DNA of 38,313 nucleotides, from positions 1 to 38,313 of IMG/VR virus record IMGVR_UViG_3300018041_000019. One strand, 5' to 3'. Source of the stretch: a virus. Below the pieces are notes generated by a model. That model had not been told where the DNA came from. It saw only the letters and a list, made by a program, of their open reading frames with translations, and made no database searches. The translations under genes and the position numbers were made by a program. Shown here piece after piece: positions 7,956-10,979 of this stretch. The stretch's first letter is position 1. Each line of letters opens with the position of its first letter.

Positions 7956-8387
7956 ATGAGTGCTGATGATAATCTATCTAAGATCTTTGACATAGATCCA
8001 ATGGATAAAAATGAAGTAATTAAGGCCAATGGTGAAGTATTGCCACCTAAGTCTAAAAAGATAGAAGAAAATATTAACTATGATTACGATAAGACTCGTG
8101 ACAATTTACATGGTCTATTGAATCAAGGACAAGATGCACTTTATAATGCACTAGAGATTGCCAAACAATCAGAGCATCCTAGAGCATTTGAAGTTGTAGG
8201 GAATTTAATCAAGCAGCTTTCTGAAGTGAATGCCCAACTGCTTGAGTTGCATGATAAGAAGCAAAAATTAGATACACCTAAAGGTTCAGATAAAAATGAA
8301 TCTAAGCAAGTAACTAATAATGCTATATTTGTGGGCAGTACTAGCGAGTTGAATAAACTCATTAGTGATATTAATAAAGGAGATTGA
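7956..8387 (+). CDS. 16: Terminase small subunit gp16-like
   Basis: A 143-residue mostly helical protein; T4 gp16 is 164. Two stretches match: DYDKTRDNLHGLLNQGQDAL leading to the helical pair with QSEHPRAFEVVGNL and QLLELHDKK, and near the C-terminus NNAIFVGSTSELNKLI, parallel to the T4 NATVFMGSPTEL segment. The protein binds DNA and regulates the gp17 packaging motor, whose gene is not in this window. Translation is set by an AGG-type site about 6 bases before the ATG. Confidence 0.85.
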   Translation: MSADDNLSKIFDIDPMDKNEVIKANGEVLPPKSKKIEENINYDYDKTRDNLHGLLNQGQDALYNALEIAKQSEHPRAFEVVGNLIKQLSEVNAQLLELHDKKQKLDTPKGSDKNESKQVTNNAIFVGSTSELNKLISDINKGD

Positions 8388-8389
8388 TT

Positions 8390-9103
8390 ATGGCTTTGCC
8401 AATTAATAATACGTTGACCTATACGTTAACAGTGCCGTCAACAGGCCAGGAAATAAAATACAGACCGTTTTTAGTGAAAGATGAAAAGACTTTATTGTTA
8501 GCACATCAGTCAGAAGACGTTAAAGTAATGATTGATTCACTAAAGAATGTTATTACATCATGCGTTAAAGATGATATTAATGTAAACGATTTGGCCACAT
8601 TTGATATTGAGTATATTTTTACTCAAATTAGAGCTAAATCTGTAGGTGAAATAGTGGAATTATTTCTCAAGTGTGATACATGTGAAGATGAAAAGGCAGT
8701 TACTAAAATAAACTTAGATATATCTAAGATACCTGTAACTAAAAATGAAAAACATAAAAGCGATATAATATTATACGATGATGTTGGTATTACATTAAAA
8801 TACCCATCATTTTCAATTGTTAATAAATTAGGTGGAGTTGAAGCTAAAGGTGTTGATGATTTATTTAACATTATTATAGAGTGTATTGATACAATTTATA
8901 ATTCAACTGAAGTGTTTCATGTTAAAGAGCAAACAAAAGAAGAATTAACTGATTTCTTAAATAATCTAACATCAGATCAGTTTAAGAAAATACAAGAATT
9001 TTTTGAAACTTTACCAGTTATGAAACAAGAAATTGATTATAAATGTCCTGTTTGTAATAAAGAACACCATAAAGTATTGGAGGGATTACAAAGTTTTTTT
9101 TAA
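8390..9103 (+). CDS. 26: Baseplate hub/tail assembly protein, gp26-like (zero-frame product)
   Basis: A 237-residue protein of the T4 baseplate hub gp26 type (the T4_baseplate family). The ATG at 8390 (MALPINNTLTYTLTV) follows AAAGGAG at 8376-8382. A TTG six bases earlier also keeps the frame open but is poorly placed. Conserved stretches are YRPFLVKDEKTLL near residue 24 and two CxxC pairs (CDTC, CPVC), a likely zinc site. The gene ends TTT TTT TAA on a run of eight Ts, just before the tape measure gene, where tail assembly chaperones of other phages frameshift. Confidence 0.82.
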   Translation: MALPINNTLTYTLTVPSTGQEIKYRPFLVKDEKTLLLAHQSEDVKVMIDSLKNVITSCVKDDINVNDLATFDIEYIFTQIRAKSVGEIVELFLKCDTCEDEKAVTKINLDISKIPVTKNEKHKSDIILYDDVGITLKYPSFSIVNKLGGVEAKGVDDLFNIIIECIDTIYNSTEVFHVKEQTKEELTDFLNNLTSDQFKKIQEFFETLPVMKQEIDYKCPVCNKEHHKVLEGLQSFF

Positions 9104-9282
9104 TTAATCTCTCACATGAATCATTACAAAATTTTTATAAAATGAATTTTGCAATGATGCAATATCATAAGTATAGTTTAGAAGATTTAGAAAATATGAT
9201 ACCATTTGAGAGAGAGATTTATGTTACAATGTTAATTAATCATTTAGAAGAAGAAAAGAAAAAATACGAGAGCAAAAACTAA
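8390..9282 (+). CDS. Predicted -1 frameshift fusion of gp26-like protein with a 60-residue extension
   Basis: If ribosomes slip back one base on the T run at 9094-9100, the zero-frame TAA at 9101 is bypassed and translation continues through LINLSHESLQNFYKMNFAMM to a TAA at 9280-9282, giving about 297 residues. The extension is helical and charged (SLEDLENMIPFEREIYVTML, then a KKKYESKN tail). The only ATG that could start it alone (9142) has no Shine-Dalgarno sequence. The -1 frame stays open from before the slip site to the next gene, whose ATG overlaps its stop. This mirrors lambda gpG/gpGT. In T4 the matching role may be filled by gp26 plus gp51. Confidence 0.7.
9094..9100 (+). promoter_or_regulatory. 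Slippery heptamer T TTT TTT for -1 frameshifting
   Basis: In the gp26 frame the codons are AGT TTT TTT TAA, which is a perfect X XXY YYZ heptamer with X=Y=Z=T, immediately followed by a stop codon. Both tRNAs can re-pair fully after a -1 slip. I see no strong downstream stem-loop. Confidence 0.7.
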
Positions 9283-10979
9283 TGGCACTTAAAGACCTTA
9301 TAAAAGTTAAAAAAACTAAAGTCAATTCGTCTAAATCAGGCGAAATTGAAGTTAAACTACAAGTACTTTCATCAATAGATGACAAGTTGAGTAAAAGTAT
9401 TACTCTTTTAACTATGGCTTTAAATAAAAGTAATAAACTTAATTCTATAAAAACAAAGAAAAATCAGAAAGGAGTGATGGAACTATTTTCATTTTCAAAA
9501 AAATCTAAAGAAAATGATAAGCCTAAAAAGTCTAAGAAGGAACAAGAACTTGAGCAACTGAAAATTAATGAAAAAATGCTTAAGTTTATGGAAGGCATTT
9601 TCAATAATACGTTAGCATCTAAACCTAAAAAAGCAAAAGATTTTAATTTAGGTACAATTGGCGCAGTATTGGCTATGGCATTTGGCGCATTAGTTGGTGC
9701 AGTCCAAGGTTATACTAAAGCGGTTGTACTAAGTTTAAAAATAGCTATTAAAAGTATAAAGTCAATTGGAACATTATTTGCTAAAGTATTTACAGGTTTA
9801 GCTCCTACATGGGCAGCTCTTATTAAGAAATCTATGCAAAATTTTGCTAAAGGTATAGCAAGTCGTTTAGCAGGTTTGTCAATGCAATTTGATTTAGTTG
9901 TTGATTCAATAAAAACATATTTTAAAAAATTAGGAAGTAAAGTAAAAATTGAATTACCAAAACCAATTTTGGACTTTATGAAAACGGTAGGTAGTAAAGT
10001 ATCAGCAGCAGTTAAAGCAGTATCAGCAGCAGTTAAAGCAGTTCTTACATTCTTACAACCTATAACTAATTTGGCAGCAAGCCTCGGTAAAATATCTATT
10101 GCCCCAATTGTTCGCGTAGTTGAAAAAATAGCCAATTTCTTTAAATCTATGTTTGGGTATATGAGTAAATTTGGTGGTTTGGCTAGTAAAATATTGCCAT
10201 TAGTTAGTAAATTGTTTCTTCCATTAACAATTGTTATTACAGCATTTGAGTCTATTAAAGCTGCTATTCAAGGATATGCTGACGGAGGTATTTTAGGAGC
10301 ATTAGAAGCAGGTATTTCTACATTTTTTACAACATTAGTTGGAGCTCCATTAGATTTACTTAAAGACATGATATCCTGGGTATTAGATAAGTTTGGATTG
10401 GAATCTGCTTCTGATATGCTTGATAGTTTTAGCTTTTCTGATATAATATCTAAATTTTTTGAAGCAATATTCCATCCTATAGAGACTCTTAAAAATATAT
10501 TTACTAGTGTAATGAATGCATTAGCTAAAATAGAAATTGGGCCATTTAAGATACTTGGCAAACAATTTGGGCCATATAAACCATTTTCAGGTTTAGCAAT
10601 AGAAAGCCCATCTGAAACGAGTGATGGTGGCAGCCCATCTGAAACGAGTGATGGTGGCACAACTGAAAAACCTATATATTCAGAAACCGTATCTCCGCAG
10701 TTAAATAATGCTACTGCTGAAGAATCAGATCGGATAAGAGATGCCATAAAAAGACAAGATATCAATAAAAATATTAATAAAGGAAATAATGTTGATGAGG
10801 CATCATCTGAGGTAGAAATGATTAAAGGATCTCCCTCTCCACCAAAAGTTGATAACAATATAGTTAATAATGCTCCTACAAATATTGCTAATAATACTAA
10901 TAATAACTACCAGCAAGATATAAGAAATAGAGATCATTCTCTAGGAAAATATAACGAAAGTAGATATTTGTTTGGATAA
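9282..10979 (+). CDS. 29: Tail tape measure / baseplate hub protein, gp29-like
   Basis: A 565-residue protein; T4 gp29 is 590. The N-terminal 110 residues are lysine-rich and helical. The centre (about 120-410) is dominated by long alanine/glycine-rich hydrophobic helices (TIGAVLAMAFGALVGAVQGY and others) typical of tape measures, which set tail length and later line the DNA channel. The C-terminus is low-complexity with many Asn (NNTNNNY). Its ATG overlaps the stop of the frameshift extension, matching the chaperone-tape measure order of most long-tailed phages. Two internal tandem duplications are present. It ends at a strong bidirectional terminator. Confidence 0.8.
   Translation: MALKDLIKVKKTKVNSSKSGEIEVKLQVLSSIDDKLSKSITLLTMALNKSNKLNSIKTKKNQKGVMELFSFSKKSKENDKPKKSKKEQELEQLKINEKMLKFMEGIFNNTLASKPKKAKDFNLGTIGAVLAMAFGALVGAVQGYTKAVVLSLKIAIKSIKSIGTLFAKVFTGLAPTWAALIKKSMQNFAKGIASRLAGLSMQFDLVVDSIKTYFKKLGSKVKIELPKPILDFMKTVGSKVSAAVKAVSAAVKAVLTFLQPITNLAASLGKISIAPIVRVVEKIANFFKSMFGYMSKFGGLASKILPLVSKLFLPLTIVITAFESIKAAIQGYADGGILGALEAGISTFFTTLVGAPLDLLKDMISWVLDKFGLESASDMLDSFSFSDIISKFFEAIFHPIETLKNIFTSVMNALAKIEIGPFKILGKQFGPYKPFSGLAIESPSETSDGGSPSETSDGGTTEKPIYSETVSPQLNNATAEESDRIRDAIKRQDINKNINKGNNVDEASSEVEMIKGSPSPPKVDNNIVNNAPTNIANNTNNNYQQDIRNRDHSLGKYNESRYLFG
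9999..10040. repeat. 21-bp tandem duplication in the tape measure gene
   Basis: Two identical 21-bp copies (9999-10019 and 10020-10040) each encode VSAAVKA, giving VSAAVKAVSAAVKAV. Perfect identity at the DNA level points to a recent duplication. Confidence 0.85.
10605..10658. repeat. 27-bp tandem duplication in the tape measure C-terminal linker
   Basis: Two identical 27-bp copies (10605-10631 and 10632-10658) encode SPSETSDGG twice, just after the last hydrophobic helix. Identity at all 27 bases suggests a recent slip event in a tolerant linker. Confidence 0.85.

Follow-up and report, generated by a model that had tools for sequence, protein, structure and literature searches.

A probable -1 frameshift linking two forms of a tail assembly chaperone in a T4-like phage sequence, with a likely SD-like stimulator upstream

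Results

The sequence analyzed here is the IMG/VR virus record IMGVR_UViG_3300018041_000019, and "the window" denotes this whole record of 38,313 bases; the features mapped between 8390 and 10979 lie on its plus strand. A gp26-like gene, predicted to encode a short tail assembly chaperone (TAC-N) of 237 aa, starts at an ATG at 8390, ends at 9103 and falls into PF12322 (T4_baseplate) at 5e-64, far above the cut-off, and into phrog_150 at 3e-67. Its 3' end reads TTG GAG GGA TTA CAA AGT TTT TTT TAA, which contains an SD-like GGAGGG (9079-9084), the candidate slippery heptamer T TTT TTT (9094-9100, within a run of eight T's at 9094-9101) and, directly 3' of the heptamer, the 0-frame stop TAA (9101-9103). 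In the -1 frame, 60 codons (9100-9279) can be read before a TAA at 9280-9282. This extension (9100-9282; TAC-C, gp51-like) matches phrog_634 ("baseplate hub assembly catalyst", gp51) at 1e-25, as well as the C-terminal part of phrog_150, and its stop overlaps the ATG of the next gene as TAATG, with one base (9282) in common. The next gene (9282-10979) encodes a putative tape measure protein of 565 aa, a name that is largely positional because the PHROG matches are weak (best 7e-5). The neighboring genes are T4-like and encode tail tube, small terminase, DNA end protector, head closure and baseplate proteins.

Gene content around the locus varies among relatives. The window has a small terminase-like gene (7956-8387) between the tail tube gene and gp26, unlike HTVC008M and phiM7, in which the tail tube gene itself directly precedes gp26. 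In HTVC008M (L082 1711-2043), Melnitz (L090 1725-2054) and phiM7 (L084 1705-2124), the extension and the putative tape measure gene are separated by an additional ORF without a name, about 110-140 codons long; the window is without such an ORF. The gp26-like protein (8390-9103) also carries two CxxC pairs, CDTC and CPVC, which suggest a zinc-binding site; similar pairs are found in T4 gp26 and gp51 and are missing from many relatives (for example L036 and L059).

The presence of an in-register heptamer at the 3' end of gp26 is far beyond chance. We compared 170 unique gp26 genes taken from IMG/VR and from named phages; 169 of them have T TTT TT(T/C/A) in register at this position, with C as the last base in 138, T in 27 and A in 4, and the lone exception (L194) is a frame-broken gp26 copy in which the slip site is still present. 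The stop follows the heptamer at a distance of 0, 3, 6 or 9 nt across relatives. Elsewhere in gp26, an in-register TTTTTT occurred at 1 in 8,100 other codon positions of 36 representative genes, and none of their 42 other Phe-Phe pairs had the form T TTT TT(T/C). The window and its close relatives have eight T's; only six, usually ended by C, are present in 142 of the 170 unique relatives. For L079 and L080, TTTAAAC was considered as the slip site and rejected, the in-register reading being T TTT TTA.

A tblastn search with the extension found a homolog in 594 phage records, mainly from cyanophages, with further carriers among Vibrio, Pelagibacter, Methylophilales, Sinorhizobium and Pseudomonas phages. 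Scanning the -1 frame of the window revealed no ATG, GTG or TTG until 14 codons past the 0-frame stop, where the first ATG is found, and the extension is thus without a start before its conserved part. Purifying selection acts strongly on the -1 frame and extends to the 13 codons that precede the first possible start: among nine members of the window's clade that align without gaps, pN/pS is 0.17 overall, 0.18 for the stretch of 13 codons ahead of any ATG and 0.16 for the codons that follow. The same DNA read in frame 0 gives 2.2, and ratios exceed 1 in the other frames. The low pN/pS on both sides of the first ATG supports translation from the slip site onward. A preliminary description of this DNA had pointed to a perfect heptamer with the stop directly after it, to a -1 frame open for 60 more codons up to the tape measure ATG and to an extension with no good start of its own, all of which are confirmed; it had also proposed to look for the T run and the -1 frame in related phages, and both are kept there.

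In T4, genes 26 and 51 lie side by side on opposite strands. By profile comparison, T4-type gp26 aligns with the short form only (E 2e-17), and T4-type gp51 aligns along its length with the short form plus the extension, that is, with the predicted fusion. The extension alone is homologous to the C-terminal part of gp51, both through its phrog_634 match and through alignment to the end of gp51 from T4, Pm5461 and 44RR (hhalign, E 1e-8). These alignments equate gp26 with the short form and gp51 with the long form, with T4 producing each from a gene of its own. An AF2 model of the short form (pLDDT 87) has as its best PDB match the HK97 tail assembly chaperone 2OB9, although the match is weak (prob 0.87, E 0.67).

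The arrangement resembles lambda gpG/gpGT in that a -1 frameshift would take place near the end of the short form and in that the extension lies directly before the tape measure gene. The slippery heptamer at the end of the short form is in register and conserved, and the -1 frame continues as open coding sequence until it reaches a gene whose assignment as tape measure is itself weak. Unlike in lambda, the slip sequence here is T TTT TTT, immediately followed by the stop, and the sole structural link found between gpG/gpGT and gp26 is the weak fold match to the HK97 chaperone. Site conservation, the constraint on the -1 frame and the domain architecture of T4 gp26 and gp51 together argue for the programmed -1 frameshift in a gpG/gpGT-like layout that had been proposed.

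Public annotation treats the extension differently, as a small gene (gp51) that stands alone and has a start codon of its own; in the HTVC008M, phiM7, S-CRM01 and Melnitz records it appears as a separate small CDS under names such as baseplate hub assembly catalyst. We consider this very improbable and reject it on the constraint before the first start and the homology to T4 gp51: the first start codons in the window are 14 codons inside the conserved part, the 13 codons before them are equally constrained, and in T4-type phages the extension domain is fused to a gp26-like domain. In addition, immediately 5' of the slip site the -1 frame of Melnitz and ACG-2014i is closed. The same fusion could also be obtained if RNA polymerase slipped on the T run to give mRNAs with one extra U, for which the eight T's of the window and its close relatives would be suitable. 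However, runs of six T's are too short for efficient polymerase slippage, and transcriptional slippage is disfavored because most relatives have only six, usually ended by C; the SD-like motif, moreover, would act on ribosomes. We regard this origin of the frame change as very improbable.

A ribosomal frameshift would be favored by the GGAGGG at 9079-9084, which lies 9 nt upstream of the heptamer. Its pairing with the anti-SD is predicted at -9.8 kcal/mol, among the best in the gene, with the anti-SD of the host assumed. There is synonymous selection on the motif, seen at the L-E-G codons of 46 representatives, which are mutually related so that the p-values are somewhat optimistic. The Glu codon has a GAG:GAA ratio of 26:8 against a background of 269:772 (p 2e-9), the Leu codon preceding it ends in G in a ratio of 23:12 against 242:659 (p 3e-6), and the Gly codon is biased toward GGG (p 0.01). 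As controls, the next Leu codon is unbiased (p 1.0), and at other conserved Glu positions GAA is the preferred codon. Across the representatives the motif is mostly GAGG ending 10 nt before the heptamer, with nearly fixed spacing, and it is weak or absent in some relatives (for example Vibrio nt-1, pf16, Astolliot and L019).

These features are those of the 5' SD stimulator of E. coli dnaX, namely an SD-like motif at the right distance and under synonymous-site selection, with the host anti-SD assumed; the SD spacing reported for stimulated -1 shifting is 9-14 nt (review, PMC5009743). The dnaX -1 signal likewise has its SD-like element upstream of a homopolymeric heptamer at 9-14 nt, but the heptamer is A AAA AAG rather than a U run, and no strong downstream hairpin is shown here. 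GGAGGG is thus likely to be a 5' frameshift stimulator resembling that of dnaX, and possibly an undescribed one. More tentatively, cyanophages, pelagiphages and related T4-like phages may share a conserved dnaX-like signal for tail chaperone frameshifting, with an SD-like element placed some 9-10 nt ahead of T TTT TTY, that was previously undescribed for phage tail chaperones; this wider proposal is plausible, with the balance tilted slightly against it. Polycistronic mRNAs often carry SDs ahead of gene ends (PMC5009743), and GGAGGG could instead serve re-initiation or coupling to the next gene, which would be compatible with the frameshift. Such a role appears unlikely, given that there is no start codon at SD distance from GGAGGG, that the start of the next gene is 198 nt away and that the motif keeps an almost constant distance from the heptamer.

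Downstream of the slip site, a common RNA structure was sought across relatives and none was seen. The fold energy z of the 60 nt just downstream of the heptamer has a mean of -1.26 versus about -0.4 elsewhere, and the window has a predicted hairpin at 9120-9158 that is modest (-9.6 kcal/mol, z -1.9), begins 19 nt from the heptamer, is not conserved in shape and is of doubtful role. A downstream RNA stimulator is only weakly supported, and with no common structure and a hairpin this far away we do not claim a pseudoknot or hairpin stimulator.

Discussion

Judged from sequence comparison, the locus very probably encodes two forms of one tail assembly chaperone through a -1 frameshift on T TTT TTT. 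Most ribosomes would stop at 9101 and release the 237-aa short form (TAC-N, gp26). The upstream GGAGGG would pair with the anti-SD of 16S rRNA, as assumed for the host, and a minority of ribosomes would slip one base back on T TTT TTT. A point against the frameshift reading is that, in E. coli, U UUU UUU and U UUU UUA reportedly shift less readily than A AAA AAG (PMC5009743). Ribosomes that slip would add the 60-residue helical C-terminal part and thereby produce the long form (TAC-NC). If the division of labor in lambda gpG/gpGT applies here as well, the tape measure protein would be coated by the short form, and tail tube subunits would be brought in by the long one. The slippage itself, its rate and these chaperone roles are what we infer.

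Frameshifting is reportedly conserved in several T4-like groups, but not in T4's own. Vladimirov, Gautam and Davidson (Virology 2022, doi 10.1016/j.virol.2021.11.003) identified the tail assembly chaperones of T4-like phages. Their work is cited in the PRFect paper (PMC10885494) for T4-like phages with short and long chaperones as separate genes, and in the paper on phage Adele (PMC12846349) for -1 frameshift signals of the poly-T kind in the TAC-N genes of T4-like phages. The preliminary description had presented the link of T4 gp26/gp51 to the frameshift mechanism as new; going by the title of the 2022 paper and the two papers citing it, that link had already been made and the statement is out of date. 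With this published precedent in T4-like phages the claim of novelty fails, while the mechanism stands, and the window provides another example of the arrangement, with a possibly undescribed stimulator. The gp26/gp51 chaperones of that study belong to the same protein family and follow the same two-form logic. T4 itself differs in that the two forms are encoded as separate genes, gp26 and gp51, a layout that shows frameshifting to be replaceable by two genes.

Each of the nine frameshift-type records examined either lists the extension as a gene of its own or omits it. Most likely, however, the extension forms the end of a chaperone with two forms, and joining it to gp26 would correct the annotation in hundreds of genomes. 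The SD-like element offers a testable handle on the ratio of short to long form in T4-like phages. The large gene directly after the extension, in tape measure position (L089 1727-3156; L091 1695-3177), is named lytic transglycosylase or endolysin in public cyanophage annotation.
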